The position numbers and the translations under genes were made by a program. From positions 1-64,000 of the forward strand of contig JAFLBS010000012.1 of NCBI GenBank assembly GCA_017303755.1: 64,000 nt of DNA. The letters run 5' to 3'. The notes beneath the pieces are model-generated. The model was not told where the DNA came from. It did not search any database and was given only the letters and a program-made list of their open reading frames with translations. This DNA is from Flavobacteriales bacterium. GTDB taxonomy: Bacteria > Bacteroidota > Bacteroidia > Flavobacteriales > Flavobacteriaceae. Shown here piece after piece: positions 13,023-51,570 of the stretch (its first letter is position 1; each line of letters starts with the position of its first letter).

Positions 13023-13031
13023 AGGAAAGCC

Positions 13032-26544: not shown

Positions 26545-27478
26545 AATGATGTGTTTAAAGGACAAACATCATCGAAAATAAGTACATAAAAAAGGTGAAC
26601 AAAGTGAAAGATTAGTTAATTTGGATTAACTTTCTAAACGAGTTAAATTTTGGTATAAACTACAGAAAATGGCTTGTATAATTGCTGAAAGCATTCTGAA
26701 AGAATCAGTTTGTGAATTTTTGATTTCGGGGTTCAAAGGGGTTTCCCCTTGCAAGGAGCAAATTAACACGGTTACGGGGTAATTTGCTAACTTGCAACTC
26801 CCCACAGCATCATTTTTGAATCTTTAAAGTTTGTTCTCTTATCGGCAGATTTTAGTTTTCTCTTTTTCATTTTCTTATTGGATTTTGCATTTCATTTTTC
26901 TATCATTTTTCTCTGAAGCATTCTCATTTTTTCTTAGTTCCTTTTTTTGGTTTACCTCTTCTTTGAACACTAGAAATTTTCTATTTGCTTTTACAGAATA
27001 TAGTTTTATCTCATGGTCATTAATTGCTTACTTCTATTTTAATTTTGATTAAACTCTAATCTTTCCAAGTAACTTTTCTTTCCCATTTTTAAATTGTTGT
27101 TGTGGGTAATTCAGAGACTCCCATTTTATTTGTTTTACTATTGGGTAATAACTACTCTGCTTTAGCAAATTGAATTTATTAAAAATCAATTTGACTTTCG
27201 GCATCTAATCAATATAAGACTTCTTGTTGTTGTGTTAGTTTGTGATTTTTGTCAAATAAGTCCTTATTGAATCTATACGAAAATTGAATAATTGGCTTTA
27301 TAACTACGAAATCTATCTCTTGGATTATCCTATTGACATGTTCGAAACTCTCCCGAACACCCTGATTATCTTGGATAAACACCTCGCTTAATCAAGGTTT
27401 AGTATTGAATACAAGTAGCTTTTCGGAGGTTATTGTTATGTTCGAAAAGAATAATGATGTAATTTTTCTTTTTCGAAC
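26545..27478. other. Gene-poor left margin of the mobile element
   Basis: About 930 bases with no convincing gene. It holds an inverted repeat resembling an oriT (26737-26805). Near 26880-27030 the minus strand has about 50 open codons without a start codon, possibly a gene remnant. TTCGAACA-type sites begin near 27340. The left end of the element probably lies in this interval but no direct repeat marking it could be found by eye. Confidence 0.45.
26737..26805. promoter_or_regulatory. Inverted repeat resembling a mobilisation origin (oriT)
   Basis: ggggtttccccttgcaagg, agcaaatta, then cacggttacgggg, then taatttgct and aacttgcaactcccc. Arms TTGCAAG..GCAAATTA and TAATTTGC..CTTGCAA pair around a loop with ggttacgggg. 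The form fits oriT regions of Bacteroidota mobilisable elements as remembered, but no relaxase lies nearby; the relaxase here is 24 kb away. Confidence 0.35.
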
Positions 27479-27479
27479 A
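27437..27479. repeat. Inverted repeat with TTCGAACA ends after the serine recombinase
   Basis: tatgttcgaaaag (about 27437) pairs with ctttttcgaacata (about 27467-27480). It overlaps the recombinase stop codon. It may be a terminator or, with similar sites at 27341 and 29122-29184, a recombination site. Confidence 0.45.
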
Positions 27480-29095
27480 TAAACAGCATCATCATATATC
27501 TCATTTATTTTTACAAGTCCCCAAATAAATCAATCAAGTTCTAGTATAGCATTTCTATGACTAACAGCAAGTTTTCCGATTTCCTTTTGTAAGTAATCAA
27601 TTTGATCTTGATATTTTTTTATGTCTGCTTGAAATACATTCTTTTGTAATTCATCAGGGTTGTTTTGTCTGTTAAAATTTCTTGCATAGTTTTCCATCAA
27701 TGAACTTATATGATTCATCTGAAGCTGTAGCTTTCTTCTTTTCTCATTAATATTTTTAATGGTCTTATCGTATTCGTTAATTTGAAACTCTCTGTATTTT
27801 TCGTAGTTATTTTCATTAATTTGAAAATGTTTTTTGAAAAAATCAGAAATCAAAATGATAAGTTCTTCTCCACTAATTGAGAATTGTTTATCATTTACTT
27901 TCATTCCTGTTAGTTTGTAATTGAATTGATGTGGCTTAACAATATCCTTTAATGATGCGTTAGGGTTACTAACTTTTAAATTAGCCAACGCACTGCGATG
28001 TCTTTTAGGATTTGGAAGTTCAAAAATCATCCCATGCTCTCCTTCAAAACGTAAAAACTTATTGGGTATGAGTTTTAACTCATCATATTCATCCTTAGTT
28101 TTATATGCTCTTAAAGAAGTTGGATTTGCTTGTAGATGCCTGTCGAGTAAGATTTTATGTTCTTCTTCAGTTATAAGTGGCTGGTAGTATGGACTTGCTC
28201 CATCACGCAAATCTACCTCATTGTTTCAACTTATAAGCACTCCATAATAGAATGGGTCTAGCCGTATCCTATACAATAGTTTCGTATTTAGCTTTGCTTC
28301 CTTATTTTTGTATTTTCTTTTAAATCAACTTGATATAATAAACTTTCCAATTGTTTCATCAGTTTGATTTTCATATACCTTTCTTCTGAAAGCTTCTTTC
28401 CATATTTCAAAATATTCTGGGTCGGGTTGGTGGTATTTCTCTTGATTGATAATGTATCCATATTTATGTTTTCCATCTGCCTGTCCTCTTTCAATAACTC
28501 CCATCTTTCAACGACCAACATTTTTACTTAGTACATCTGAGTAATTGTATGAAATTACAAAATTAATTCACAAAATCATTCTACCATTTTCATTGTTCTC
28601 AAAAGTGAAATTGGTGTATTGCACATCTAAGTAGTTTTGGTCTATTAGCTGAACTAATTCTCCACTTTCAACAAGATTTCTTGCGTGCCTGTCAGGTGCA
28701 TAACTAAGTATTCATTGAATTTTTCATTTCTTAACCAAACTAATTAGTTTACTTCGAAGAGGTCTGTTATTTGGTGTCTTTGCTGACTTTTGTTCTACAA
28801 TATAGAATAGTCCATTAGCTCTTTCAAGTACAACTTGTTCATAAGTGCCTTTACATTCATTTATCCATCTATGATAACTTTCATCACGAAAGAAAGTATC
28901 GGTTAAATCATTATGGTGCTCGACATTAATATCTCTTTGTTTTGCATAGTCCAAACAAGTTCTCAATTGGTCTAATAAACTTTGCTTTTGTCAGTCACCG
29001 CTCTCCTCTCTTGATTTCCTACAATAGATGACATATTTAATCTGACTTCTATCTAGGACAGGGTTTTTCTTAGGTGTTTTTTTGTTCTTAAGCAT
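27479..29095 (-). CDS. Large serine recombinase, intact only with TGA read as glycine
   Basis: 538 residues in one frame from the ATG at 29095 to TAA at 27479, crossed by eight TGA codons (starts at 28991, 28724, 28712, 28568, 28508, 28325, 28226, 27530). Read as Gly the order is that of large serine recombinases: N-terminal resolvase domain with catalytic Ser in YCRKSREES, VKKGKIQGIL, DRHARN, GRMILGIN, NVGRGKMG, then the recombinase domain (PFYYGVLIS) and a coiled coil (about 440-510). Gly is expected at KKGK, MILG and VGRG. Under the standard code it is cut into short fragments. It probably mobilises the element or its ancestor. Upstream inverted repeat and TTCGAACA sites flank it. Codon use unlike the chromosome. 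Confidence 0.85.
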
Positions 29096-29121: not shown

Positions 29122-29184
29122 TGTTCGATTGCAATAGAAAAAAGTATAGCGATTTGAGATAAAAAAGCAAATAATAATCGAACA
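29122..29184. repeat. Inverted TTCGA(A)C sites upstream of the serine recombinase
   Basis: aatgttcgattg near 29122 and aataatcgaacaaatt near 29172 form an inverted pair with TGTTCGATT / AATCGAACA arms about 45 bases apart, just before the recombinase start. Similar motifs follow the gene. They could be recombinase binding sites. Confidence 0.4.
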
Positions 29185-29443: not shown

Positions 29444-30271
29444 CTAAATCGGATAATTTGCCACTAACACTTCTTTTTTTCTTTTGATAGGTCAACTGTT
29501 CCTGTTGTGACTCGCTGATAGTGGCTTGTCAAAAGTTTTTACATATCGGTTATGTTTTTTAATAAACTCGTTTAGTATTTCAGAAGGATAGTTTGATAAT
29601 AGAAATTTTCATTTAATGTTTGCCAGTACTTCCAAATCACGAATAAAATGTTCTTTCTCATAACCACCGTAGTGTCCTTGGTTCGTTCCAATATAGGGTG
29701 GGTCTGCATAAATAAAAGCATCTACTCTGTCTCTACTTTCGATAACTTTGTAGGCATCGTTTTGTTCGATTTGGGTATGGCGAAGTCTGTCCATTAAATC
29801 CGAACCAAACATATCAATTTTATTTTTAAAGACAACTGACGACCTTCTTTCTCTGTCGTATCATCGGCTACCAATTTTGTTTAAAAATCCTTGATTGGTC
29901 ACTACATAGAATGCCCAAGCTCTGATAACAGTTTCGTCTGCGAACAATCGTGGGCAATCATAAATAAACAATGCTTTTCTGTAGGTTTCTCTGCTGTGGA
30001 GCGTGTCTTTAATTTTTTGCTCAAGTTCCGCTCATTTGTTTTTTAAAACCTTGTAAAAGTTAATCACGTTCATGTTCACATCATTGATGACTTCACACTT
30101 GGCAGGTTCTTTGGCTCGGTAGACACTTCATCCGCCAAAGTAAGGTTCAATGTAAATATTGTGTTTGGGAATCAAAGGCAAAATGTCCTTTAACATATTC
30201 TGCTTTCAACCGTAGTAGGAAATAGGTGTTTTTAAAATCACTTTAGGTCTGTTTTTGGGATTTGTTGTCAT
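29444..30271 (-). CDS. DNA adenine methylase (D12 class), intact only with TGA read as glycine
   Basis: 275 residues from ATG at 30271 to TAG at 29444, crossed by six TGA codons (30206, 30128, 30032, 29861, 29609, 29492). As Gly these complete motif glycines: SYYGGKQ (SAM motif I, residue 22), EPYFGGGSVYRAK (residue 48), and NIKGKFLLS. Catalytic motif DPPYIGT is intact. The C-terminus EVLVANYPI is usual for this family. Trp (code 4) would break all three motifs, so Gly is the right reading. Predicted N6-adenine methylation of DNA; the target site is unknown and no restriction enzyme is adjacent. Leader gTAAAACAAA. Confidence 0.9.
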
Positions 30272-30365: not shown

Positions 30366-30746
30366 CTACTTTTTATCTTCTTCAGTCACAACTTTCTTGT
30401 CCTTCTCATTTTTATCTTTGTTAACAAGAGTTGGTTTGTTGTTCCCTAATGGGATAATTTCAACTGGTGCTGAGGATACCTCTTTACTCCATTTGTTGGT
30501 CACATAGGAAATGATGCTAAAATCATCTCCTATGACTTTAAGTAACTCTTCGTTTTCCATATCAACAAGTTCATACTCTTCAGGGATAACCCCATCATAA
30601 ATATGATTGATGATTTCGATGAGTTCTTTCCTAGAGAAGTACTTTAACAAATCAGCTGAGATTTGTTTGGTTTCTTTCTCATCCTTTGCTCTGTTTTTTA
30701 GCACCAATGAAAATAATTTCATAAGTGCCCATTTTTGTTTTTCCAT
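30366..30746 (-). CDS. Small protein of the IGDDFxIxSY family, paralogue 1
   Basis: 126 residues, no in-frame TGA. Region about 35-85 has FSRKELIEIINHIYDG..., then MENEELLKVIGDDFSIISY. The 201-residue protein encoded at 31184 has the same order (KDELMDIIKWLY, MDKEELLQAIGDDFYILSY), so they are paralogues. The C-terminus is a Lys/Glu-rich tail. Function unknown. Leader taaaacaaaagccatt. Last of a six-gene minus-strand operon. Confidence 0.65.
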   Translation of the reverse strand: MEKQKWALMKLFSLVLKNRAKDEKETKQISADLLKYFSRKELIEIINHIYDGVIPEEYELVDMENEELLKVIGDDFSIISYVTNKWSKEVSSAPVEIIPLGNNKPTLVNKDKNEKDKKVVTEEDKK

Positions 30747-31183: not shown

Positions 31184-31789
31184 TTACAGCATCATTATTT
31201 TAGCTTCTCCTTCTTTGAGTTGTCCATCCTCAATCATCTTAAGTAGTGCTTCGTTTGCCTCCTCTTCAGTATCATAGAACTTAGGAGGTGGCGTAGTTAC
31301 AATGTACTTGTCCTCTTCGCTAACTGAACTATCATAAATACCAAATACAGGAGTTGGATTTCCAGCCTTATGTGATAAAGCCCTGAAATTGGCACAATCA
31401 TATTCGTCCCAATCCGTTACGGGTTTTTCCATCAAATAATGCGTCTCCAATCCCAACTGAGCAAGGGTAGCTCGTACTCTTTGTGGAGTAACTTTGGTGG
31501 TTTCATATAGTTCCATTCTCGCTTGGTCTATCTCATAAGAAAGAATATAGAAGTCATCTCCAATGGCTTGCAACAGTTCTTCTTTGTCCATTTGGTCGTA
31601 ATTTATCCACTGGGGTACAGTAGGAACATACAACCATTTGATAATATCCATTAGTTCATCTTTGGAGTAGATCGAAAGGAAAACATTGTCTATGGTAGAG
31701 ACCTTTTCATTTTGCATAGTTTGTTGCAATCTTCTAAGGAAGTACTGTATAACCAAACGTGCTTTTGTTTTTCTAAGCATTTCTTTCAT
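31184..31789 (-). CDS. Hypothetical protein with IGDDFxIxSY domain, paralogue 2
   Basis: 201 residues. N-terminal domain (20-90) shared with the 126-residue gene: SKDELMDIIKWLY and EELLQAIGDDFYILSY. The C-terminal part (about 100-200) has LGLETHYLMEKPVTDWDEYD and an acidic helical end. No known family. Leader ccgTAAAACAAAAATTT. Confidence 0.6.
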   Translation of the reverse strand: MKEMLRKTKARLVIQYFLRRLQQTMQNEKVSTIDNVFLSIYSKDELMDIIKWLYVPTVPQWINYDQMDKEELLQAIGDDFYILSYEIDQARMELYETTKVTPQRVRATLAQLGLETHYLMEKPVTDWDEYDCANFRALSHKAGNPTPVFGIYDSSVSEEDKYIVTTPPPKFYDTEEEANEALLKMIEDGQLKEGEAKIMML

Positions 31790-31806: not shown

Positions 31807-32265
31807 TTACGGTTGTTCATCTTTGAGCTTATCCTTTTGCCAAAATTCTTTTGAGGCTTCAAATCCTATCCACTGACCATTGTGGTCAAAACCACGATTG
31901 GCAAGTTCATGACGGATAAGTTTCTCTAGTGGAATTTCATATAAAAGGACAAAGCGTAGAAGTTCTGCTTCCATTACAGAAAACTTACCTAGTAAGTCTT
32001 CCCAATGTTCTAGCATATTGGTTTGTTGAGCGATGGCTTGCAATCTTTCATAAGAAAGATTTTTGTAGCTATCGGTAAGCGGATAAAAATGGTTGTCCAT
32101 TTCCATCTCTTGTGCCGTCTGTAAATCAGAAACTACAAAGTTGTCTTCGGGTCCGTCATAGACCACAAAATACCTCTTGGCATTTCTGTACTTAAATTGC
32201 AACCAAACCGCTCTGTCTATTGCATTGTTTAGGTCAGAGTAGAACTCCATAGCATTTTGTTTCAT
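31807..32265 (-). CDS. Hypothetical element protein
   Basis: 152 residues. Has RYFVVYDGPEDNFVVSDLQTAQEM, then a helical part (LSYERLQAIAQQ) and ends NGQWIGFEASKEFWQKDKL. The start after acaaaactc fits the leader motif. Second gene of the operon. No family named. Confidence 0.6.
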   Translation of the reverse strand: MKQNAMEFYSDLNNAIDRAVWLQFKYRNAKRYFVVYDGPEDNFVVSDLQTAQEMEMDNHFYPLTDSYKNLSYERLQAIAQQTNMLEHWEDLLGKFSVMEAELLRFVLLYEIPLEKLIRHELANRGFDHNGQWIGFEASKEFWQKDKLKDEQP

Positions 32266-32292: not shown

Positions 32293-32526
32293 TTAGTCTT
32301 GTTCTTCTTCATCCTCTTGCTTGTCTTGAGGTTCGCAGTAGGTCATAATGGTTGAAAGCAAGTGGTTGTAATCGCCACTTTGTGCCTCTTCAAGCACTTG
32401 GTCGATTTCATCTTGCGTCCAACCCTCACGTCTTGCTTGTCTTGAGAACACTCCCATAATGGCATACGCATTCCCATCAACCCCGACAAGTTCGAGGTCG
32501 ACTGTTTTTCCAATTTTGTTTTGCAT
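32293..32526 (-). CDS. Small hypothetical protein, first gene of operon
   Basis: 77 residues: N-terminal strand-rich piece (VDLELVGVDGNAYAIMGVF), then a helix (WTQDEIDQVLEEAQSGDYNHLLSTIM) and an acidic tail. Similar small proteins are common in Bacteroidota phages and elements. No in-frame TGA. Promoter likely within 32527-32640. Confidence 0.6.
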   Translation of the reverse strand: MQNKIGKTVDLELVGVDGNAYAIMGVFSRQARREGWTQDEIDQVLEEAQSGDYNHLLSTIMTYCEPQDKQEDEEEQD

Positions 32527-32948
32527 CGTTTTGTTTTTTAGTTGCTAAATAGTTTTTGCAGGAAGTATCCAATAACCAGAACTTAGGATTTAGAATCCCT
32601 ATTTTTTACTTCCGCTCCAACACTTTACATTTTTGTTTTAAGTGATTTGGTATGTTCTCTGGCGGTGGTGCTTGTATGGATTTTTTTTCATTTCGCAAGG
32701 GAATCAGCTTCACTTGAACTTTACATTTTCAAAATTTGTCAATGCAAAAAACAGAAGAAAAAAAAGTGTATTTCTATGGGGTTCTTTCTTGAAAAAATGG
32801 AGATATTGCTTGGGATTATGTGCGGTTTTTCATCTCCTTTAGAGGTTTCCAAAAAGGTAGGCAAAAAGGTAGTTAAAAAGGTACACGCCAATAGGTGTGC
32901 TTTTTGGTCTTTGTAGATAAAGGACTTGCATTTTTAAGTAAAACAGAT
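32527..32948. other. Divergent intergenic region
   Basis: 420 bases between two oppositely oriented gene sets. Several open frames are present but none has family features. The stretch from about 32848 holds short repeats gaaaggtaggcaaaaaggta-like (aaaaaggta three times) and then acacgccaataggtgtgct. It presumably contains both promoters. Confidence 0.4.
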
Positions 32949-34357
32949 ATGTACCACCTTCCGCTTTATTTTCTAGCTCGACACAAAATGACAGTACATA
33001 AACGCTTTTTTGATTTTATCGCCTGAACCATTCGTCTGTATTTTTTAGACCCAAGCCTGTTCCTGTGTACCTTCATGCACTAAAAAGACATCTGATTATT
33101 ACATGAAGGACGGGTTCAGGCAAATCGGTATTCTTGCAGTCGCTTTTTTACAAACTCCAATATCTATCGCATAAAAGACAGCAATATGCACTGGTACTAT
33201 TAGACCCACATGGGGATTTGGCGGAGCGTATATTGGCATTTCATTTAAACGCTCTCAAGCCACAGCGTATTATTTATATTGACTCGTCCCGAGAGAAAGA
33301 CTACATCCCGTGTATTAATCCCTTTCGAAAGAAAGTGAGTAATCCTATGATGGTGGATTTACTATCTCAGCAACGAGCCAAAACATTTGCAGAACTCATT
33401 CCCGAAGCAGGGATGTCCTTGCAAATGGAAACGCTTTTAAAACCATGCTTGGCGGTTCTGTTCTCTCATGGAGGATGTGGCTTATCGGATTTGCAGGATT
33501 TTATGAATGACGCTACCAACCAAAAACGGATTGAACTTTGAAAAAAAGCAACGCATCCAGTCTACAGGAGTTTCTTTACTTCTGCCTTTGAGAATAAAAA
33601 ATACAGTGCGACCAAACTTGCGGTATATACAAGACTTCAACACCTACAAAACAATTATAGTTTTTATAGGATGATGAACGGGGAAAGTGATTTTGATTTG
33701 AAAAAAGAAATGCAAAAGGGAAAGGTAATTTTATTTAATCTCTCCAAAGGAAAATTGGGTGAGGACACAAGCAAGGCACTTGGGAAGTTTGTATCGGCTA
33801 CGTTATTAAGCATAGCGTTGCAACGTGCATTTGAACAAGAACAGTATAGAAAGGCTTGTTATCTGTTTGTAGATGAATTTCACAATCTTGCTTCGGGTGG
33901 CAGTAGTATGGAGACGATATTCTCTGAAGCAAGAAAATACAAATTGCATCTGATAGTGGGAACACAAAGTGTCAATCAACTCCCTGTATCACTTAGGGAT
34001 ATGGTCATCAATAACACCGCTATTAAACTTGTTGGAATTAATGGACTTACTGCTTTAAAATCTCAAGCAGGAGATTTGGGTGTTCCCTTTACTATTTTAA
34101 AAACACTTCCTCCATTTTATTTCTACATTAAACAAGACCACTACGTTGCAAGAAGGATAAAAAGTCCGGACTTTCTTTTAAAACACTCTAAAAGGTATTT
34201 CTTATCCAAAAAAGAACAAGCCAAATTAAAAGCTCAAATCCTTTCTCAAAATTCAATTTACAGAAGCACTAAAAATCTTGATAGCGATTTGTCTGCTATC
34301 TGATCGCAAAACTCCACAGAGTCCAGCAATAATTTCAAACCCAAATTCCAACTGTAG
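32949..34357 (+). CDS. Conjugation-type ATPase (VirD4/TraG-like), TGA as glycine, with one frameshift
   Basis: About 467 residues. The ATG at 32949 follows a TAAAACA leader. Frame is shifted by one base at the T run near 33036-33048; adding one T joins IRLYF to FRPKPVPVYL, so a homopolymer error or mutation is likely. TGA at 33024, 33104, 33539 and 34301; 33104 gives the first Gly of Walker A (TGRTGSGKS). Walker B is LFVDEFHNL, with VGTQSVNQL and LRDMVINNT following as in type IV coupling proteins. LLDPHGDLAE is also typical. Reading through the last TGA extends it to TAG at 34355. N-terminal region is short. Broken under the standard code. Confidence 0.75.
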
Positions 34358-34418: not shown

Positions 34419-35270
34419 ATGTTAACCAAAAGATTATTTTTCAAAACGCTCTCGCCATCACAAGAAAAAATCCTGCTGAGTTTGGCTCGTTATAAATTTC
34501 TAACCACAGGACAGATGCTTCGTTTGGGAATTATGTCCGATAGAGCCAATTTAAACAAACAAATCCTTGAACTCAGATATTGGAAAAACCCACTGGTGGG
34601 TTCTGCAACCTTTGGTGTGCATCCAAAGTTTTGAAAATTGGAAAGTATCCACCATCTGACTTCGCATGGAGCTAAACTTATCGAAGAGCGTTTATCTTCG
34701 AGTATGATTATAAGGTTTCCAAAGGCTAACACCGTGCTGTTTGGACAGGATTATTACCATAGAATCCACACCATTGATGTTCATATCGCTTTACAAGAAT
34801 GGGCATCAAGTGAGTCTATTGAGTTATCACTTTTTCTAACGTATTTGGATAAAGCCACCACTGGTAAAACAAAAGGATTCAGAGCAGAAACCTACATCTC
34901 ATTTTCAGATAATGAGTATTTGATTGCTGATGCTATTTGTATGCTTCAAACTCCAATCAGAAAAGAACTCTACGCCATCGAAGTATTTAATGGTATGAAT
35001 GTGCAACGTGTACATAATTCATTACTACAACATCTAATGGCTTTAAAAGAAGGTCAGCCAAGCAAACAATTTGGACTTGAGTACGGCTCAAGGGTGCTGA
35101 GCGTTTTTGGATTGGAAGCCTGTAAAACTCAAATCATCAAAAGAATTTTTGATGATGAGCGTTTTGCTTTTGCCAAAGAATATTTTCTTTTTAAAACACT
35201 CGATGGACTGAAAGAAAATGTGTTTGAGGGATGGGAGTTGTTTGATGGGACAGTAAGAACATTGTTTTAA
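34419..35270 (+). CDS. Replication-relaxation family protein, one TGA read as glycine
   Basis: 283 residues from ATG at 34419 to TAA. N-terminal helix-turn-helix-like segment (LARYKFLTTGQMLRLGI) is the family signature. One TGA (34632-34634) after FGVHPKF; as Gly it makes KFGKLESIHHLTSHGAKL, and Gly before the LT..G segment is usual in this family. C-terminal half has IDVHIALQEWA and ETYISFSDN. Replication-relaxation proteins are linked with plasmid and element mobilisation, commonly in Gram-positive and CPR elements. Same strand as the coupling ATPase, so part of its operon. Standard-code reading gives two half proteins. Confidence 0.7.
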
Positions 35271-35550: not shown

Positions 35551-37683
35551 ATGTTTATATCAAAATTATCAATTAGAAACTTTAGAAATTTCAGAAATGT
35601 TTCACTGAAATTTAATAAAGGGGTAAATACAATTATCGGAGAAAATGGTTCTGGAAAAACGAATCTCTTTCATGCAATTAGGTTACTAATTGATGAAAGT
35701 ATGCCAAGAGGCGTGCGATTATATGAAAACGATTTTAATCGTTCACTTGGAAAATGGGCTGGACATTGGATAATAATTCAAATCGAATTTCAAGAACTTG
35801 ATTCTAGTGAGGAAGCACAATCTATCGCAATGCACAAAATTGGTACTGTAGATGATATTGATAGTACTATAGGAACTTATAATATGTTCTTCCGCCCTCG
35901 CATTGAAGTAAGACGTAATCTTTATAAACTTTCTCAGAGTGATGATAAGACAGTCGAAGAGTTAGATAAACTGTTAAACGAAATATCATTAAACGACTAT
36001 GAATCTGTTTTTACTGGAAGAGGAAATGTTGATTTTTCAGATGATGAGACATATTCTGAATATGTTGGTGATTTTGATGAAATAACATTTCCTGACCCTG
36101 ACCAAGAGCAAACGGATGTGTATGGTATAAAAATGTATGGTATTTCTATTCCCAATGAATTTGCCTTTACTTTTGCAAAAGCTCTTAGAGATGTTGAATC
36201 TGATTTACGCTCATATAGAGATAACCCGTTACTGAATTTATTGAGAGATAAAGAGAAAAATATTTCAATTGATAAGAAAAACGAAATTGAAGAACAGGTC
36301 GATAAATTAAATAAAAATATTTCAGGTTTAGAAGAAGTTAAAGGTGTTTCAAAAGGGATTACTCAAACCATAAAAGAAGCAGTTGGAGAGACATACGCAC
36401 CCAACGTAAATATTAAATCTGAGTTGCCTTCAGAAATGGAAAAAATACTTCAATCTTTAAAATTATGGGTTGGAGACCCTGACGAAGAAGGACACGAAGG
36501 TAGATTATGGGAATTGAGCCTCGGAGGAGCAAATCTTATTTATCTTTCACTTAAATTACTAGAATTTGAAAAAGTTAAGAAAGAAAATAAAATTGCAAAT
36601 TTTATTTTAATTGAAGAACCTGAAGCGCATATACACACTCATATTCAAAAAACGCTGTTTCAAAAATTAGATAAAGAAAAAACACAAGTTTTTATTTCTA
36701 CACATTCTACTCATATTTCATCAGTATGTGAAATAAGTTCTATGAATATTTTGGGAAGAGGAAAGAAAAAGGCTCATGTATATGCACCTTCAAATAATCT
36801 TGAACCAGACAAAATAACAAAACTAGAAAGATATTTAGATGCCAATAGGACTAATTTATTGTTTGCGAAAGGCGTAATTCTTGTCGAAGGAGATGCTGAA
36901 CACATATTAATCCCTGAAATTATAAAAAAAGCATTTGGTGTTTCTTTAGATGAACTTGGAGTTTCAATCATTAATATTGGAAGTACGGGATTTGACAATG
37001 TTGCCCAATTATTCCATAACGATAGAGTTCGTAGAAATTGTAGTATTCTGACAGATAACGACCTTTCTATTGTTGAGTTGCCCGATGACCCAAAAGATGA
37101 CAGTCAATACGAAAGAGATTGTCGTAATTCTCAAATATCAGGGGTAGATAGAAAAGAAAAACTAGAACTTTTTTGTAAGGATAATGATTTTGTGAAACCA
37201 TTCTATGCCAAACATACTTTTGAAGTTGATTTTTTACTTGAAGGAAATTCACACGAAGTTATTGAGACAATTAAAAAAACATATAAAAGACAAAACGACA
37301 TTGACCAAATTACAAAATTGCTTGAGGATGATGATGTTTCTATTTCAGGAAAGGAAGTTTTAAGATTAGCTGAAAAATTTGGAAAAGGTTGGTTTGCTAT
37401 TATGGTTTCCGAACAGATTAGCAACATTACATATATCCCCGATTACATTTTGGACGCCATAGTATTTGCGTGTCCAACTCTTAATCAAAGTATATTACTT
37501 ACTATTGCAAAATATAGGCTCAATAAATTAAAAGACAACCATTATACAGAAGATGAAACAGATTATAAATCACTTCTTGAGAAAATAAGCTTAATTGAAG
37601 ATACAGAAGAGGCATTAGAATTCTTCAAGACAGAACTTTCTGATGATGTATTATCTAAATTAATTAACAAACTAAATGCTTAA
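35551..37683 (+). CDS. gajA: Gabija GajA-type ATP-dependent OLD nuclease
   Basis: 710 residues, no in-frame TGA. N-terminal ABC-type ATPase: Walker A GENGSGKTN (about 31), signature LGGAN (about 325), Walker B FILIEEPEAH. C-terminal TOPRIM domain: ILVEGDAEHILI (about 445) and TDNDLS, the acidic catalytic pair. Longer than the Bacillus GajA (about 580). Overlaps the helicase gene by 8 bases. Together they match the Gabija anti-phage pair. Regulation by a leader of 280 bases is not resolved. Confidence 0.82.
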   Translation: MFISKLSIRNFRNFRNVSLKFNKGVNTIIGENGSGKTNLFHAIRLLIDESMPRGVRLYENDFNRSLGKWAGHWIIIQIEFQELDSSEEAQSIAMHKIGTVDDIDSTIGTYNMFFRPRIEVRRNLYKLSQSDDKTVEELDKLLNEISLNDYESVFTGRGNVDFSDDETYSEYVGDFDEITFPDPDQEQTDVYGIKMYGISIPNEFAFTFAKALRDVESDLRSYRDNPLLNLLRDKEKNISIDKKNEIEEQVDKLNKNISGLEEVKGVSKGITQTIKEAVGETYAPNVNIKSELPSEMEKILQSLKLWVGDPDEEGHEGRLWELSLGGANLIYLSLKLLEFEKVKKENKIANFILIEEPEAHIHTHIQKTLFQKLDKEKTQVFISTHSTHISSVCEISSMNILGRGKKKAHVYAPSNNLEPDKITKLERYLDANRTNLLFAKGVILVEGDAEHILIPEIIKKAFGVSLDELGVSIINIGSTGFDNVAQLFHNDRVRRNCSILTDNDLSIVELPDDPKDDSQYERDCRNSQISGVDRKEKLELFCKDNDFVKPFYAKHTFEVDFLLEGNSHEVIETIKKTYKRQNDIDQITKLLEDDDVSISGKEVLRLAEKFGKGWFAIMVSEQISNITYIPDYILDAIVFACPTLNQSILLTIAKYRLNKLKDNHYTEDETDYKSLLEKISLIEDTEEALEFFKTELSDDVLSKLINKLNA

Positions 37684-39418
37684 AGGTTTAAACCCGCAAC
37701 AAATTGAAGCAGTAATTGAAGAAGGAAACGTTCTTTTAACTGCTTGCCCAGGCAGTGGTAAAACTCGTGCGCTAACTTATAAAATAGCATACGAGTTGGA
37801 ACGTTTAACTAATTCAAAAAAAATCATTATAGCGGTTACCTTTACCAATAGAGCAGCTGATGAAATAAAAAAGAGAATACGTGAATTAAATGCAGACGAC
37901 ACTAATTTGTGGGCAGGAACGATTCATTCCTTTTGTTTGGAGTGGATTCTAAGACCTTATATGTGCTATTTAGATGAACTCAAAAATGGTTTTTCAATCT
38001 CTGACGAATATAATTCTGAAAATTTGATTAGTGAGTTGAAACCAATTTACGGTCTGGGTTATTGGGACTCAGTATCCACTAAATATCTACCAAATGGAGA
38101 GAAAGAAGAGATTGTTTACAGGGAATTATTAGATGAATACCACGAGATTTTAGCTAGTAAAAAACTTATTGATTTTGACCAAATACTTTATTATGCAAAT
38201 AAATTGATTTTATCTTATCCAAAAATATCTGAAATCCTTAAAAATATGTTTCATTTGATTTGCGTAGATGAGTACCAAGACACACAACAATTACAATATG
38301 CAATTTTGTCAAAAATAATGAAAGGAGCCTCTGGGAATTGCAAAATGTTTTTTGTTGGAGACTCTGATCAGGCTATTTATGGTTCATTAGGCGGTGTTGC
38401 GAAGAACCTCGAAGAAATCCAAACTGAGTTTGGAACAACGTTCACAAATAAAGAGCTATCTGGAAATTATAGGTCTAACCAACAAATTATTGATTATTAC
38501 AAAAACTTTCAAACTACTGATATTGATATAAAGGCATTAGGGTCAAATGCAGATGATATTGCTGTAATAACCTATAACAGGACAGTTCATAAGGATGATT
38601 TGACGGTTTATATTTCCGAAATAATAAAACAAAAGATATCAGAAGGGATTCCAGAACATGAGATATGTATTCTCGCTCCAACTTGGTATCTTGTGATTCC
38701 TATGGGCAGAAAATTAAAATCACTTTTACCCAATGTAAAGTTTGATGCAGTCGGCTTATCTCCTCTACAAAAAAATAGAGAAAACACTTGGTTTAAAGTA
38801 GCTAGATTATTTCTTGTATCTCCTTCTCCAAAGTCTTTTTTAACAAGAAAACGTTGGGCAACAGAATTAATCAACGAATTAGAAAGTTTAGGTGTTGTAA
38901 TCTTTGAGAACAAAGAATTTAAATCAAAAGCATTATTGAAGTTAATAAACTCCATATCATCCGAAGAGACCGATGGATTAAAATACTTGGAAGAGTGCTT
39001 TACTGAGTTAGTTGAGAAGTTAGAAATATCAATATCTTCAAATGAAATTCTTAAATTACACTGGACAGCATTTTTTGATGGTGCAAAATCAAGACTTGAA
39101 AATCCTGATTTTGATTTAGCAAAAGATATTGAAAGTTTTAGAAAAATGTTTAAGCATGAAGAAGGAGTTGTCGTTAATACCTGTCATGGAATTAAAGGCG
39201 AAGAATTTGATACAGTAATTGCATTTGGTTTATTACACGGAAAATTACCCAATTGGAATGAAACAGGACATGGAGCAACTGAGAAATTATTGTATGTAAT
39301 TTGTTCAAGAGCTAAACGTGAATTACATCTTATATCAGAGACAGGTCATGTAACAAAAAACAAAAAACCTTATAATCCAACATATCAACTTAGTTCACTT
39401 GAATATGATTATGATTGA
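37676..39418 (+). CDS. gajB: Gabija GajB-type UvrD-like helicase
   Basis: 580 residues, overlaps gajA. Superfamily 1 helicase: Walker A ACPGSGKTR (about 23), FTNRAADE, Walker B VDEYQDTQ (about 201), GDSDQAIYG, NYRSNQ, HGIKGEEFDTV, ICSRAKRELHL. Ends in TGA at 39416-39418 in the standard code. Under code 25 it would run on 16 codons to TAA. No internal TGA. The pair probably senses nucleotide depletion and cuts phage DNA, as for Gabija. Confidence 0.82.
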   Translation: MLKGLNPQQIEAVIEEGNVLLTACPGSGKTRALTYKIAYELERLTNSKKIIIAVTFTNRAADEIKKRIRELNADDTNLWAGTIHSFCLEWILRPYMCYLDELKNGFSISDEYNSENLISELKPIYGLGYWDSVSTKYLPNGEKEEIVYRELLDEYHEILASKKLIDFDQILYYANKLILSYPKISEILKNMFHLICVDEYQDTQQLQYAILSKIMKGASGNCKMFFVGDSDQAIYGSLGGVAKNLEEIQTEFGTTFTNKELSGNYRSNQQIIDYYKNFQTTDIDIKALGSNADDIAVITYNRTVHKDDLTVYISEIIKQKISEGIPEHEICILAPTWYLVIPMGRKLKSLLPNVKFDAVGLSPLQKNRENTWFKVARLFLVSPSPKSFLTRKRWATELINELESLGVVIFENKEFKSKALLKLINSISSEETDGLKYLEECFTELVEKLEISISSNEILKLHWTAFFDGAKSRLENPDFDLAKDIESFRKMFKHEEGVVVNTCHGIKGEEFDTVIAFGLLHGKLPNWNETGHGATEKLLYVICSRAKRELHLISETGHVTKNKKPYNPTYQLSSLEYDYD

Positions 39419-45263: not shown

Positions 45264-45703
45264 AAAGTTTGAAAATGTTGACCGAAAATTACAAAATAAA
45301 AAATGTTTAAAAAATAAAATAAAAATCTTAATAATTAAAAACACTCAAGTAAATCAGTATTATAGAGCTTTTTTCTCTTTTTATCCTTTATAAAATCCAT
45401 GTTTCTTTCGTACTTGATTTCCCGATAGTGACATTGCCTGTAGTTGTTCCTTTGCCTTGTTAAATCAAACTAACAGGTTTACTTCCTTAACCGCAAAAGG
45501 AGACACAAAAGTTTAATCTTAATCATTAAAGCGATGAGAAATTCCAACAGAAAAGGTGTGGATGAATTAGAGCCAGGCACTTTACATGCTTAGTCCGCAC
45601 TTTGGGAAGTGAGTGAAGTAGAGTAACTCTCCCTGTAGTCTTGGAGCAGGAACATTTCCTGCTCCATTTTAAAAACAGTTACAAATCAATAAAATTTATA
45701 AAA
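45264..45703. other. Gene-free interval and terminator before the mobilisation module
   Basis: Near 45641-45666 is a strong stem ggagcaggaa-catt-tcctgctcc followed by attttaaaa, a terminator-like hairpin. A tiny 19-codon ORF (45534-45593, ends GTLHA) is seen but not supported. No promoter identified. Confidence 0.4.
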
Positions 45704-46075: not shown

Positions 46076-46747
46076 ATGAAACTACAAATAACAACTAATG
46101 CTTATCAAAGCATCGTTAAGAAAATCGGCTCAGGTGTTCCTGAAAAAGGAGGTATTTTGATGGGAATCGATGGAATTATAACTGATTTTATTTTTGATAA
46201 AAACGCTCACACTACAGGTTCTACTTACTCCCTTGATGTTGCCTACCTCAATCCAATAATCAAGGAACACAAAAAACAAGGCAAACAACTTATGGGAATT
46301 ATTCATTCCCACCCTTATGGATGCTCCGAGCTTTCGTATCCTGATAGAGAATATTTTTTAAGTCAATTTAAAAATTTCCCCAGTTTGGATTTTATGTACA
46401 CACCGATTGTATTCTCTGCCAAACAAAATGAATTTGAGTTCTTTCCTTATGTGTTTTATAAAGATGGAACTGTTGAAAAAGCAGAACTTGAAGTCTTGCC
46501 CAACAATTACAGAGAGTACTTGCAAGAAGAAATCCAAGAGCCAAACCATCAAACTATCATTGTAAGACAGGAGTTACTAATTGTAATCAAACAGGAAACA
46601 CACGCTTCTGCACCTGAAAAAGAACGTCAGTTGGAATTTGAGCCATTATCTATGATAATCTTATTTTCTAACCTGTATTTCTTCTTACTTGGATTAGCTA
46701 CAGCCATTGTACCATTCACTCTTATCCACATCATTAAAAATCTATAA
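46076..46747 (+). CDS. JAB/MPN (Mov34) domain metalloprotease-like protein
   Basis: 223 residues. JAMM motif is complete: Glu in PEKGGILMG (about 23) and HSHPYGCSELSYPD (about 81-94), so it can be a zinc peptidase. A membrane segment ends the protein (LYFFLLGLATAIVPFTLIHII). Followed 2 bases later by a ThiF-type gene. The pair resembles the JAB-ThiF genes of PRTRC-like plasmid systems. Confidence 0.78.
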   Translation: MKLQITTNAYQSIVKKIGSGVPEKGGILMGIDGIITDFIFDKNAHTTGSTYSLDVAYLNPIIKEHKKQGKQLMGIIHSHPYGCSELSYPDREYFLSQFKNFPSLDFMYTPIVFSAKQNEFEFFPYVFYKDGTVEKAELEVLPNNYREYLQEEIQEPNHQTIIVRQELLIVIKQETHASAPEKERQLEFEPLSMIILFSNLYFFLLGLATAIVPFTLIHIIKNL

Positions 46748-46749
46748 TC

Positions 46750-47658
46750 ATGGACTACTCAAGAATACAAGACAGTGTAGATATGGGAATCATCAAAAAT
46801 TCCCATATCGTAATAGTTGGTGCAGGTGGCTCATACTCCTTAATTACTTCACTTGCAAGATGTGGTGTTGGCACATTAACAGTACTCGACTTTGACACCG
46901 TAGAACAAACCAACATCGTTCGTCAAGGATATAAAATTTCTGATATTGGAAGATATAAAGTTGATGCGCTCGGTAACGAAGTAGCGAGTATCAATCCCGA
47001 AGTAAACTACAAAGGGATTACCAAGAACTTTTTAGAAATGAACGACAAGGAACTGGATGCGATATTCAAACAAGCCGATTTATTATTATTTCTTACCGAT
47101 TCATTTAAAGCACAAGCCTTTGGAAATCTCATTGCTTTAAAATATAATACGCCTGCCATTTGGGCTGGGTGGTACACACAAAGCCGTACCGCAGAATTAT
47201 TTTTTCAAGTTCCCCAATATACCACCGCTTGTTTTCGTTGTGCAGCCTCTTCACGATATAAAGCTAATGAGCAAGAAGAAGTAAAAATTACATCTAATTG
47301 TAATACCATTTTTCATTCACAATTACTCGATTCGCTTATTGGTATGATGGCTCTAGCCATTTTGCATCGAAACACAAATAAAACGGATATTAAAGTAATG
47401 AATGAGTACGAGTTGTTTTGGGATTCTCTTGTGTCAAAAGACGGCTCAACACCATTTAATTTCTTTCAGTTCAAGGCACATCCGGTGGGTGGTAATAAGT
47501 TATTTGACAAAGCCTATTCACATTTAAGAATGAATGCCCACAATTTTGTAAGTCACTGGCAAAACGCAGAAGCGGAGCTCAAAATACACGGTTACGATTA
47601 TGATTGTCCTGACTGCAAAGGAAATCTTCATCACGCTGTAAATAACTCAAATCCGTAA
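46750..47658 (+). CDS. ThiF/HesA-type E1-like adenylyltransferase
   Basis: 302 residues. Rossmann start IVIVGAGGSYS (about 23), TVLDFDTVEQTNIVRQ (about 45-60), typical for E1/ThiF. Two Cys pairs CFRC (about 159) and CPDC near the C-terminus could bind zinc. The usual GxGxxG is changed to GAGGSYS, so activity is not certain. Directly after the JAB gene. No ubiquitin-like protein is recognisable. Confidence 0.75.
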   Translation: MDYSRIQDSVDMGIIKNSHIVIVGAGGSYSLITSLARCGVGTLTVLDFDTVEQTNIVRQGYKISDIGRYKVDALGNEVASINPEVNYKGITKNFLEMNDKELDAIFKQADLLLFLTDSFKAQAFGNLIALKYNTPAIWAGWYTQSRTAELFFQVPQYTTACFRCAASSRYKANEQEEVKITSNCNTIFHSQLLDSLIGMMALAILHRNTNKTDIKVMNEYELFWDSLVSKDGSTPFNFFQFKAHPVGGNKLFDKAYSHLRMNAHNFVSHWQNAEAELKIHGYDYDCPDCKGNLHHAVNNSNP

Positions 47659-47662
47659 CACA

Positions 47663-47827
47663 ATGAACGCTACAGTCAAACTATTTTTTTCTGCTATAGG
47701 CAGTTTATGTATCGCCATTCTCAGATTCATTTTAGCTTGTTTTTATGGATTAACCAAACTGCTGAGTGCTATCTGTCAATTTTTAATAAGTGCCTTTGAT
47801 GAAATGCTAAACAAACTAAAGCCATGA
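47663..47827 (+). CDS. Small membrane protein
   Basis: 54 residues, mostly hydrophobic (LFFSAIGSLCIAILRFILACFYGL). Its TGA stop overlaps the ATG of the coupling ATPase (ATGA) and is followed at once by TAA (TGATAA), so in code 25 it would gain only one Gly. It may be a membrane partner of the coupling protein. Confidence 0.5.
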   Translation: MNATVKLFFSAIGSLCIAILRFILACFYGLTKLLSAICQFLISAFDEMLNKLKP

Positions 47828-49233
47828 TAAAAAAATTCATCCTTAATCAAATTAAAGCGAGTTCTCCAACTGCCAAACAAGTTGTGGAAACGATATGGGG
47901 CAAAGACCATACCCTTAAAGCAGAGTTCGGAAAGGCTACCAATTTGATCTCAACTGCTAATGATGGGTTCTGTATTGATGGAATACGTTTTTTGTCATTA
48001 GTACAAAGTAGGTCAAATTATTTAGTCGTAGCCCCATCTGGAAAAGGTAAAAGTCAGGTCTCAGTATTCCCATTCATATTGAACGCCAAAAGCAAACACT
48101 CCCTTATTGTTAATGACCCAAGTGGTGAGTTAAGTGCTACTATACCATTTCTGGAATCAGTCGGTTATAAATGTCATATCCTAGATTTCGGAAAGAAAAC
48201 TGGTGTGTATTTCAATCCTCTCGATGGATGTGTAAATCATAATCTTACTCAAATGAGAAAAGTTGCTAAAACATTGCTGACTGCCACCACCAAAGAAACT
48301 GAAGATTTTTTTAGCATATCAGCAGAAGACTGTTTGGTGTTGTTCATTCAGTTGCTCATGGAATCAGAACCTATGCAGTTTAGAAATCTAGCCAATGTAT
48401 ATAGACTTATTCTTGAGTACCAAGCCAGCCCACATCTGATTGAAAACCTTGTAGCAAATAAAGGTTCTGAAGAGGTATTCAGAAAATTTAGAGCCTTGGC
48501 AGGAGCTTCTGAGAACACCCGAAAATCAATTGTAGCAAGTGCCTTAACTGCTTTGTCCTTTATTGGAGAAGACCCAACCCTGTGTGATATTACCTCTCGA
48601 ACCACTATCCGTTTTGAGGATTTTAGAACACGACCAAGTGCCTTGTTTGTTCATGTGCCTGTGGGTGATGTACGATATTATGCTCCAATGGTTTCGCTGT
48701 TTTTTCAAGAGTTCTACCGTTTTGCTTTTTCGTATCTACCAAGTGATAGAGAACTCGATATTATGATGGTACTTGACGAGTTCGACACCCTAACTGCCAT
48801 TCAGGGATACTCTGAAATTATTTCCAATGCGAGAAAATTTAAAATCCCACAGCAACTCATTTTACAATCTGAAGCTCTACTGAGTAAGTATGGCGATAAG
48901 GCAAAAAATATTTTAAACAATTGTAACGTCAAATGTTATTATGGAGGTTTGGGTCAGGAAGCCTACGATTTGGAAAGAGTCTTAGGGAGTTTTGAGTACA
49001 AGGATGATAAATCGGGAGGCATTAGACAACGACCTCTGATGACTGCCTCTGAAATCCGTGAGATGAAGGATGAAGTACTAGTTATCCCATCGGGAGAAAA
49101 ACCATTAAAAATTCCCATCACTCCTGCCTACAAACAGAAACTACTGGTAACAAAACTATGTACTCGACCAAAAAGTAAACCACATCCTGTGCAGTACAAC
49201 GTCAGTTATTTAGACCTTTCCATTTACAGATAA
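47824..49233 (+). CDS. Type IV coupling protein (TraG/VirD4-like)
   Basis: 469 residues. Walker A APSGKGKSQ (about 76), DPSGEL, Walker B MMVLDEFDTL (about 317), then KFKIPQQLILQSEA and a C-terminal TraM-recognition-type part. Function: links the relaxosome to the conjugation channel. TGA-free, TAA stop. This second coupling ATPase of the element is distinct from the one at 32.9 kb. Confidence 0.82.
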   Translation: MIKKFILNQIKASSPTAKQVVETIWGKDHTLKAEFGKATNLISTANDGFCIDGIRFLSLVQSRSNYLVVAPSGKGKSQVSVFPFILNAKSKHSLIVNDPSGELSATIPFLESVGYKCHILDFGKKTGVYFNPLDGCVNHNLTQMRKVAKTLLTATTKETEDFFSISAEDCLVLFIQLLMESEPMQFRNLANVYRLILEYQASPHLIENLVANKGSEEVFRKFRALAGASENTRKSIVASALTALSFIGEDPTLCDITSRTTIRFEDFRTRPSALFVHVPVGDVRYYAPMVSLFFQEFYRFAFSYLPSDRELDIMMVLDEFDTLTAIQGYSEIISNARKFKIPQQLILQSEALLSKYGDKAKNILNNCNVKCYYGGLGQEAYDLERVLGSFEYKDDKSGGIRQRPLMTASEIREMKDEVLVIPSGEKPLKIPITPAYKQKLLVTKLCTRPKSKPHPVQYNVSYLDLSIYR

Positions 49234-49268
49234 GAACCATTTTCAAGAACCGTATAACCTTTAGTACA

Positions 49269-49583
49269 ATGAAACTGATAACAATAGCATTAGAAGAGCG
49301 ATTTGAGAAAATCGGTGACCAGTCGCAAACTACAGACCCAATTATCGTTGCCAAGTTTTTTAATCCCTGTGGTTCTGCTACATGGTATGCTACTGAGTAC
49401 GATAAAGAAAATAAAATTTGTTTTGGTTATGTTACAGGAATGGCTTTTGACGAATGGGGAACATTTTCAATTGAAGAGTTGGAGTCTATTAAACTACCAT
49501 TTGGATTGGGCATTGAACGGGATATTTATTTTAAAGAAACCCGCTTTAAAGAAATAATAAAAGAACAAGACTTGGAACGCTAA
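49269..49583 (+). CDS. DUF2958 domain protein
   Basis: 104 residues. Matches DUF2958: PIIVAKFFNPCGSATWYATEYD, GYVTGMAFDEWGTFSIEEL and LGIERDIYF. These proteins are common on mobilisable elements; their function is unknown. In the module between coupling ATPase and relaxase genes. Confidence 0.75.
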   Translation: MKLITIALEERFEKIGDQSQTTDPIIVAKFFNPCGSATWYATEYDKENKICFGYVTGMAFDEWGTFSIEELESIKLPFGLGIERDIYFKETRFKEIIKEQDLER

Positions 49584-49614
49584 ACACTATTGCATCATTT
49601 TAAAATAACTAAAC

Positions 49615-50259
49615 ATGGGAACACGAAATTTAACTATGGTCATTCAAGACCAACAGACTAAAGTAGCCCAATATGGACAATGGGATGGCTATCCCGAAGG
49701 TCAAGGACTTACCATTCTTTCTTTTTTAGAGGAGAAAACCAATATTGAAAAACTTAAACAAATACTTCCTAAAGTACGCTTTGAGAATAAACAGGACATG
49801 AAGCAGAAATCCGAGTTTTTTAAATCAATGGGTGCGGAAGATGGGTGGATGAATATGGAACAGGCTGATCAATTCCACAAGCGATATCCACTTCTTACCC
49901 GTAATCTGGGAGGAGAAATTTTAAGTAAGATGTTAGAGTATGCAAACCAAAAAGAAATTGTACTGGTTAATTCTGAGGATTTTGCCTTGGATAGTTTGTT
50001 CTGTGAATGGGCGTATGTAGTGGACTTGGATAAAAATACGCTAGAAGTGTACAAGGGATTTAATCAATCTGCGATTACTCCCAAAGATAGATTTTATAAT
50101 CTCTACGATAAAAAGAATCGCTACAAGCCTATTAAGATTGTCAAAAGTTTCTCTTTGGATAAACTTCCTGATGCAGAGAAATTCATTTCTGAATGTAATA
50201 AACAGCATCAAAGAGATAAGACACTATCTAAATCCCAAGATAATGATTTAGAACGCTAA
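49615..50259 (+). CDS. Hypothetical element protein (GTRNLT type)
   Basis: 214 residues. Starts MGTRNLTMVIQDQQTKVAQYGQWDGYPEG, a pattern seen in many phage and plasmid proteins of unknown function. C-terminal part has LFCEWAYVVDLDKNTLEVYKG. TAA stop abuts the start of the next gene (overlap TAATG). Confidence 0.65.
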   Translation: MGTRNLTMVIQDQQTKVAQYGQWDGYPEGQGLTILSFLEEKTNIEKLKQILPKVRFENKQDMKQKSEFFKSMGAEDGWMNMEQADQFHKRYPLLTRNLGGEILSKMLEYANQKEIVLVNSEDFALDSLFCEWAYVVDLDKNTLEVYKGFNQSAITPKDRFYNLYDKKNRYKPIKIVKSFSLDKLPDAEKFISECNKQHQRDKTLSKSQDNDLER

Positions 50260-50708
50260 TGGCTCACGACTTCCCCTATAAAAGCCTTCATGAATATCTG
50301 GATAGTATTTTCAAAGGTGTAACACCTAGTGAAAATGATATCATCCAAGCTAAAAAGTCCTATTGGAAAGCTTACAATACCCGACTCAAACAACATCAAA
50401 GAAAAAAGCGAAAAGAGATAACTATTGCTTTAGATAAAAAAGAATGGGAAGCGCTTTTGCAAAGACGAAGTACAAATCAATCTATACACGACTATATTAA
50501 AGAATGGCTTACTCATCATATAAGTAACAGCCCAATAGTAACAAATACCATCGTACAAGATACAAGCCAAATTGAACAACAACTTTTTGTTGTATGTGAT
50601 TATTTGGAAGGTTTAGTATATCAAAGACGGCATATTGATAACAACAGTATCGCAACACTTGAACAACTGCTGTATAAGTTGCAAAAATTATTAGAAGATA
50701 AATTTTAA
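50259..50708 (+). CDS. MobC-like relaxosome accessory protein
   Basis: 149 residues. Basic (KQHQRKKRKEITIALDKKEWEALLQRR) with a ribbon-helix-helix-like pattern, then a helical end. Position immediately before the relaxase fits a MobC/MbpB accessory protein that binds oriT. Start codon overlaps the previous stop. Confidence 0.6.
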   Translation: MAHDFPYKSLHEYLDSIFKGVTPSENDIIQAKKSYWKAYNTRLKQHQRKKRKEITIALDKKEWEALLQRRSTNQSIHDYIKEWLTHHISNSPIVTNTIVQDTSQIEQQLFVVCDYLEGLVYQRRHIDNNSIATLEQLLYKLQKLLEDKF

Positions 50709-50712
50709 AAAA

Positions 50713-51570
50713 ATGATAATCAAAAGTAAATCATATAAGAACATTCGAAGTTTTACTACGGTACTTGGTTATATCTTTCGTGAGAATGAGAAAGACCAGT
50801 CTTTTATGCTCACTAAATTTATCAAAGGCAAAGATCTTTCAACTGAGGAGTTGCATCAGCAGTTTCTAACCAATGAAGCACTCAGAATAAACAGGCGAAA
50901 AAATAATGTCGTTCTGTATATGGATATACTCTCGTTTCATCCCGAGGATGCAAAGCGACTGGGCAACGAAAAACTGTATCAGATAACTTTAAAGTATTTA
51001 TCACTAAGAGCTCCAAAGTCACTAGCCGTTGCTACTGTCCATCGTAATGAGAAGAACCATACTCATCTTCACGTTTGTTTCTCGGGAATCGAGTATAAAT
51101 CAGGAAAGTCCATTCGGATTTCAAAGGATGACTTCAAGCAAAAAGTAAAACTTCCGATGGAGAAATTCCAACAGGATGTTTTCCCTGAGTTAACACTCTC
51201 TAAAATACGACATGAAAAATCATTTTCAATAAATAAAGAACTCAAAAAGGATAATGAAAAGATACTTGAGGCTAAAGGCGAGCTATCAGAAAAACAACAA
51301 CTTCTGAAGATACTCGAAGAGATTTTCAAAACAGCAAAATCAGAGCAAGACTTTTATCAAAAGTTAGAGGAAAAAGGAGTAAAACTTTATACAAGAAATG
51401 AAAAAATTACTGGGATACAAGGCAAACGAAAATTCAGATTTAAGGTGCTTGGGTACACTTCTGAAATCTTACAATCGCTAGAACAAAATCTAACGCTTCA
51501 TAGACGATTAGAACTGCTCCAAAAAGTAAAAGAAAATGAGCAACAACGAAACCAAAATTCCAAATTTTAA
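50713..51570 (+). CDS. Relaxase/mobilisation nuclease (MobA-like)
   Basis: 285 residues. Relaxase motif KNHTHLHVCFSGIEY (about 115, H-x-H) plus a catalytic-type Tyr near the N-terminus (LGYIFRENE). Length is short for MobA, so only the nuclease domain is present. Acts at oriT to nick DNA for transfer. TAA stop; a large noncoding region with an inverted repeat follows. Confidence 0.75.
   Translation: MIIKSKSYKNIRSFTTVLGYIFRENEKDQSFMLTKFIKGKDLSTEELHQQFLTNEALRINRRKNNVVLYMDILSFHPEDAKRLGNEKLYQITLKYLSLRAPKSLAVATVHRNEKNHTHLHVCFSGIEYKSGKSIRISKDDFKQKVKLPMEKFQQDVFPELTLSKIRHEKSFSINKELKKDNEKILEAKGELSEKQQLLKILEEIFKTAKSEQDFYQKLEEKGVKLYTRNEKITGIQGKRKFRFKVLGYTSEILQSLEQNLTLHRRLELLQKVKENEQQRNQNSKF

Follow-up and report, generated by a model that had tools for sequence, protein, structure and literature searches.

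The DNA adenine methylase gene at 29444..30271 (minus strand) of the window, that is, the whole 64,000-nucleotide stretch of Flavobacteriales contig JAFLBS010000012.1 that was analysed, belongs to a foreign-coded module carried within a mobile element that otherwise uses the standard code. As judged from aligned codons, the genes of this module (recoded or R genes) are written in the published Absconditabacteria (SR1) code, in which UGA is read as Gly and both CGA and CGG as Trp (Shulgina & Eddy, 2021; PMC8629427). The R set comprised a serine recombinase, a TraG/HerA ATPase, a replication-relaxation-like protein, adenine and cytosine methylases and, in some cases, Rep3; a cluster of standard-code (S) genes lay among them, and both sets were under selection where this was measured. 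The element is best explained as a two-code mobile element that probably cycles between Flavobacteriales and an Absconditabacterium-like bacterium.

Codon assignments in the methylase and neighbouring genes

Under table 25 the methylase formed a single open frame of 275 aa. It contained the six in-frame TGA codons of the original prediction (residues 22, 48, 80, 137, 221 and 260) and four CGA codons that had been missed; from base composition alone, the probability of a 275-codon run free of TAA and TAG was about 2e-7. The protein matched Pfam MethyltransfD12 over most of its length (E 1.3e-24) and DpnM (2dpm) at the sequence level (E 3.3e-13), and its predicted model (pLDDT 78.7) matched E. 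coli Dam in Foldseek (E 1.2e-14) as well as DpnM. Family and fold thus place it in the D12 class, with adenine methylation as its predicted activity. Residues 190–193 form the DPPY motif.

The TGA and CGA columns were compared with 13 standard-code homologues (11 IMG/VR contigs, L164 and a partial frame in L057). Gly was found at residue 22 in all 12 homologues with a letter there, at residue 48 in nine of 12 (Ala in the other three), at residue 137 in 12 of 13 and at residue 221 in all 13, whereas none of the homologues had Gly at residues 80 or 260, so that the preference for Gly expected at TGA columns held at four of the six sites. The three motif glycines named in the original prediction were correct, a fourth TGA in a Gly column had gone unnamed, and a reading of TGA as Trp or as a stop would disrupt conserved motif columns. 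Among the CGA codons, residue 242 was Trp in all 13 homologues, residue 52 was Trp in six and Phe in six (n=12), residue 136 was Trp in seven, Phe in five and Asp in one (n=13), and residue 108 lay in a variable column (Trp in 1/13). With CGA and CGG acting as Trp codons, NCBI table 25 does not fully describe this gene.

This second REASSIGNMENT in the R genes was evident in the recombinase alignments, where CGA or CGG occupied positions at which another copy had TGG. In four gene families with three copies each, CGA/CGG faced TGG 23 times, CGA/CGG 48 times and another Arg codon never (n=80), and other Arg codons faced CGA/CGG in 0 of 444 cases. A pooled count was made over 23 aligned R genes from six loci and 22 S genes. 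Left out of it were the Rep3, HTH, second D12 and second hypB-like genes of L189, the standard-code TraG and replication-relaxation genes of the same locus, the L163 genes, cargo and flanking genes, and hyp192, hyp109/110, hyp111 and hypE. In the pooled R genes TGA faced a Gly codon in 205 pairs and TGA in 190 (395/477); 82 of the 477 pairs faced a residue other than Gly, and a reading of TGA as Trp was rejected, as TGG occurred in a single pair. CGA/CGG faced TGG 55 times, CGA/CGG 168 times and other Arg codons not once (n=249). At the positions where five R copies of TraG have CGA/CGG (19 sites) or TGA (34 sites), the standard-code L189 orthologue had Trp in 11 and Gly in 20, respectively; the corresponding values for the standard-code replication-relaxation gene of L189 were 4/6 and 9/14, with Trp opposite one TGA of the recoded copies. 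Both reassignments of the Absconditabacteria code were thus present in the R genes.

TGA made up 159 of 517 Gly codons in the R genes versus 0 of 139 in the S genes (Fisher p 7.6e-20). The CGA/CGG codons of S genes faced other Arg codons (14), Lys (14) and TGG (10; n=60), and one S gene (L068, 7406–7831) had CGG at a Trp column. In the window the S genes hypA (30366..30746), hypB (31184..31789) and hypC (31807..32265) and the 77 aa hypE (32293..32526), all on the minus strand, had no TGA. A family match for hypA was sub-threshold only, no family was found for hypB, whose predicted fold was too weak for use (pLDDT 67, pTM 0.42), and hypC matched phrog_22970 (unknown function; 1.6e-06) and otherwise no family; hypE had no Pfam family, and an orthologue in L069 was recognized by eye.

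The remaining R genes of the window flank this cluster. The large serine recombinase (27179..29095, minus strand; Resolvase, 1.8e-12) contained 10 TGA, two CGA and two CGG codons, and its relatives with in-frame TGA in L068 and L069 were 75 and 69 % identical, respectively. Its putative promoter is enclosed by an inverted repeat (arms 29122–29129 and 29177–29184; span 29122..29184), the arms of which recur at the matching place in L068 and, differing by one letter, in L069; isolated arms were present elsewhere in the window. Hairpins were seen by eye ahead of the recombinase, D12 and replication-relaxation genes in the window, L068 and L069. The TraG/HerA-type ATPase (33065..34357, plus strand) had three TGA codons, one of them at the leading Gly of the Walker A motif, and CGA/CGG at Trp columns. 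Its N-terminal part lay upstream in another frame (32928–33100), and searches reported one TAA inside the TraG match, not just for the window but also for the L068-type and L188 copies. The replication-relaxation-like gene (34419..35270, plus strand) had one TGA; Pfam Replic_Relax matched only its relatives, weakly (5.1e-05 and 8.3e-04, both under Pfam's cut-off), the window copy having no match.

The recoded module is adjoined by a complete-looking, standard-code Gabija pair (35551..39418), GajA (35551–37683; 1.6e-289) and GajB (37676–39418; 9.9e-231), both on the plus strand. A STAND-type NTPase gene (Pfam) lay at 42960–45344, and a look-alike was seen by eye at the matching place in L153 (5860–9018), which belongs to the L068 element. 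A standard-code kit on the plus strand (46076..51570), starting 11 kb on from the recoded module, consisted of a JAB-like gene (under Pfam's cut-off), ThiF, a type IV secretion system (T4SS) coupling protein (47824–49233), a small gene without a Pfam family (50259–50708) and a MobA/VirD2-like relaxase (50713–51570). It was followed by two standard-code tyrosine recombinases (54416–55339 and 55349–56221, plus strand), so that 47824–56221 holds the relaxase, coupling protein and recombinase expected of an integrative mobilizable element. A similar JAB-to-relaxase series was seen by eye in L153, the continuation of L068, its relaxase being found by search, and a similar pair of tyrosine recombinases (by eye) lay beside a recoded-recombinase remnant in L150. 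The relaxase, coupling protein and tyrosine recombinase kit was not seen beside the L069 module, and no exact direct repeat of 11–12 bases was shared by the element end regions compared.

Distribution, selection and ancestry of the element

Seven distinct elements were found in Flavobacteriales (the window, L068 from Flavobacterium sp. UBA2787, L069 from Chryseobacterium limigenitum SUR2, L163, L187, L188 and L189), plus one remnant of a window-type recombinase in L150, on a contig of 4.86 Mb in genome G525. The order replication-relaxation gene, TraG, hyp genes, hypA, D12 and recombinase was shared by the window, L068, L069, L187 and L188, with hypA–hypC between the R genes in all five. L189 had a similar core with hypA, hypB and a hypC-like gene and no recombinase in the stretch read; here Rep3, a second D12 and a C5 methylase were recoded, and TraG and the replication-relaxation gene (10345–13023) were in the standard code. 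On L163, a lone 7.4 kb contig, a standard-code three-gene ABC-3C cassette was surrounded by recoded genes for a Rep3 initiator and TraG and by the beginning of a replication-relaxation gene (by eye). The R-code serine recombinases were of two types without significant mutual similarity. The L069 module lies between genes that we take to encode a LytTR-type regulator and a prolyl-peptidase-like protein. Small genes that resemble each other lie next to the recombinase end in L187 (18892–19761) and L069 (12048–12912); they either belong to the element or mark an insertion hot spot common to both loci. The own genome of the window (G000) held a standard-code relative on C1 (L057) with a tyrosine recombinase, TraG, hypB and hypC, in which the D12 match was split in two with one TGA inside.

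A single scan of genome contigs gave only two loci, both in Flavobacteriales. The recombinase protein matched nine of 100 relatives at E 0.001, of which only its own copy had TGA and was near full length, and its profile matched one of 395 genomes of the order and two of 320 of the family of G452, one of the latter being a remnant. The TraG profile matched 6/397, 13/375 and 4/398 genomes in three sets, with TGA-bearing matches in two, two and three, respectively. In the third of these sets one TGA-bearing match, G1696, which is listed in the genus of G000, had the same sequence as L068 at this locus, so that G000 belongs to the genus of Flavobacterium sp. UBA2787; the fourth match, G1666, combined a standard-code TraG with recoded methylases and Rep3. 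These genome sets overlap, and all include G000 except the family-of-G452 set, which lists G452 instead. No recombinase relatives were found in plasmids, in phages or, by protein and by profile, in IMG/VR, and the replication-relaxation profile found none in IMG/VR; the TraG profile matched one IMG/VR contig, a 29 % relative whose frame had no TGA.

In the comparison of the window with L068, four R genes read in the altered code gave dN/dS of 0.07–0.11 (dS 1.4–2.1) and three S genes read in the standard code gave 0.12–0.18 (dS 1.15–1.4); dS to L069 was saturated, and dN/dS therefore rests on this one pair of elements. The low dN/dS and similar dS indicate that the two sets were inherited jointly and translated throughout one long shared history, the R genes in the altered code and the S genes in the standard one. 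A pseudogene or sequencing error was rejected for the R set, as D12 relatives at 67–82 % DNA identity keep the open frame, and dN/dS between the window and L068 is low.

The six R methylases adjoining hypA (the window copy and five others) formed a clade (96/91), outside which the second D12 of L189 fell. The sisters of this clade were two standard-code viral contigs, which suggests that the methylase probably came from Bacteroidota-type mobile DNA and was later recoded. The R TraG sequences grouped in a single clade, within which the standard-code TraG of L189 also fell (100/99; exact place 92/88), which indicates at least one code switch; it is the L189 TraG that seems to have switched. The window TraG, split between frames, and the L150 remnant indicate that some chromosomal copies decay.

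Code of the carriers and origin of the two codes

In-frame TGA was found in four of the 51 tabulated window frames (the recombinase, methylase, TraG and replication-relaxation genes). As the other 47 frames had been selected with table 11, in which an internal TGA cannot show, the table-25 listing is the fair test of the window. In that listing 42 of these 47 non-R frames kept their coordinates with no TGA inside and the other five only lengthened at one end; TGA was the terminator of two. Release factor 2 (RF2) was above the cut-off in all six carrier genomes searched, the own genome included. Typing of tRNAs for a UCA anticodon covered three carriers (G000, G451 and G452). The own genome gave 46 tRNA matches, of which 44 were typed by ARAGORN, none with UCA, and two were folded and read by eye and were not UCA. 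In G451 and G452 the regions around tRNA matches gave 172 ARAGORN calls (repeats included), none with UCA, the calls covering all but a few of the matches. A dense run of about 10 tRNA genes, including an Asn(att) call, was noted in G000 (C8:415299-416122) and is perhaps prophage-derived.

ARAGORN found no tRNA in the stretches examined of the window, L057, L058, L068, L069, L150, L153, L163 or L187–L189, so that an element-encoded suppressor tRNA of the kind used to recognize recoded phages was not detected there. An Rfam scan of the window from 26 to 36 kb gave no match reaching the gathering score, relaxed ARAGORN settings gave indiscriminate calls only, and a short anticodon pattern run over the genome was uninformative. 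A cell using the Absconditabacteria code would be marked by tRNA-Gly(UCA) together with absence of RF2, the latter trait being deduced from a contrast made in PMC8629427. The flavobacterial carriers did not show this pairing in the genomes searched for RF2 and the tRNAs typed, so that the code is that of the module and not of its carriers. The claim that TGA means Gly therefore stands for the methylase gene and fails as a statement about the genome, in which RF2 is present, no UCA tRNA was found and the non-R frames are unaffected.

The code split tells where each gene has been translated, and we infer that the simplest history is an element returning repeatedly to two hosts. The second host would be Absconditabacterium-like, a name taken from the genetic code alone. 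In the flavobacterium the standard-code genes would work (hypA–hypE and cargo; in the window also the relaxase, coupling protein and tyrosine recombinases). Element DNA would then enter an Absconditabacterium-like bacterium, for example one that feeds on the flavobacterium and imports DNA, and there the R genes would become readable: the methylases may mark the element DNA, the recombinase or Rep3 protein may install or replicate the element, and TraG and the replication-relaxation-like protein may move it onward, so that the genetic code would act as a host-specific switch. Import of host DNA via ComEC, ComEA and type IV pili has been inferred for Vampirococcus, an Absconditabacterium (PMC8080830), a survey of Patescibacteria lists 5,713 homologues of VirD4-type coupling proteins versus only 109 of relaxases (PMC12102498), and some predicted Gracilibacteria phages are matched by Bacteroidetes spacers (PMC10746230). 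We tentatively put forward a narrower version, which may or may not hold, in which the element is vectored by a parasite: an epibiont would pick up the DNA during attack and carry it to the next flavobacterium, a second set of mobility genes being legible only in the epibiont and the code acting as the switch between hosts. Set against a two-code cycle are the standard-code TraG and replication-relaxation genes of L189, the former nested among recoded copies and the latter with Trp opposite one TGA, CGG at Trp in an S gene and the 10 of 60 S-gene CGA/CGG codons that face TGG, the 82 of 477 TGA pairs that do not face Gly, the decayed copies, the lack of shared repeats marking element ends or integration sites in the regions compared, and the contig scan in which both loci were from Flavobacteriales.

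Some of these observations would also follow if Absconditabacterial plasmids or transposons landed repeatedly in Flavobacteriales and went no further, their genes being dead there and the S genes being local additions, a history that we consider unlikely. The R genes should indeed be unreadable in the carriers (RF2 in 6/6; no UCA among the typed tRNAs of three), some copies are damaged, and the R-code Rep3 initiators look like donor plasmid genes. This history does not account for the conserved position of hypA–hypC among the R genes, shared by the window, L068, L069, L187 and L188, nor for S genes without adaptation to a recoded host; divergence of the S genes keeps pace with that of the R genes across the three copies compared, which makes a separate addition hardly likely.

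The conservation of R genes between Flavobacteriales copies could instead reflect a switch of code inside the flavobacterium, where an unseen suppressor tRNA or an induced change would permit their translation at some stage. Mixed-code phages are known, and in-host recoding has been proposed for recoded phages. Mixed-code phages are also discussed by Liu (2023; PMC10746230). Such a switch appears improbable here, as no tRNA was called by ARAGORN in the window or the other stretches listed above, and two reassignments would be needed, one of them of a sense pair that is read as Arg in S genes, which together match the Absconditabacteria code.

Contamination joining Absconditabacterial and flavobacterial DNA has been reported for other genomes (PMC8629427), and L163 is a lone 7.4 kb contig, but a chimeric assembly is very hard to reconcile with the interleaving of R and S genes, seen at six loci whose contigs measure about 95 to 477 kb and include the C. 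limigenitum SUR2 record. Use of table 25 by the host genome itself, which would suit the rarity of TGA as a stop (2/47 non-R frames), is already contradicted by the unaffected non-R frames (42 of 47 unchanged, five lengthened), RF2 and the missing UCA anticodon, and was rejected as having practically no probability.

Relation to known systems and significance

The window element shares both reassignments of its R genes with the Absconditabacteria code (PMC8629427) and differs in that only some element genes are recoded, in standard-code hosts and without the tRNAs. Like the predicted Gracilibacteria and Absconditabacteria phages (Liu, 2023; PMC10746230), it is mobile DNA linked to recoded and standard-code hosts. 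Each of those phage genomes is classed there as a unit, either compatible with code 11 or using code 25, whereas the code here differs gene by gene within chromosomal, plasmid-like elements. A split by function between two codes in one genome is also a likeness to stop-recoded phages, from which the element differs in that no suppressor tRNA was found and sense codons change too. Stop-recoded phages have standard-code early and recoded late genes and often carry suppressor tRNAs. Flavobacterial integrative elements typically comprise a relaxase, a T4SS coupling protein and a tyrosine recombinase; the standard-code half of the window looks alike, the recoded module being an addition. No two-code element of this kind was described among the open-licence literature matches listed, mostly at the level of titles and the first lines of abstracts.

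Differences in genetic code are generally regarded as an obstacle to the exchange of genes. The element appears to turn this barrier into a switch, with each gene kept in the code of the host in which it is active. It gives gene-by-gene evidence for one reassignment of a stop codon and one of sense codons, in genes that standard annotation can hide as fragments. If the proposed cycle is true, genes could pass by this route between epibiotic CPR bacteria and Flavobacteriales, cultured members among the latter, and the hosts of a largely uncultured lineage would be indicated from DNA alone.
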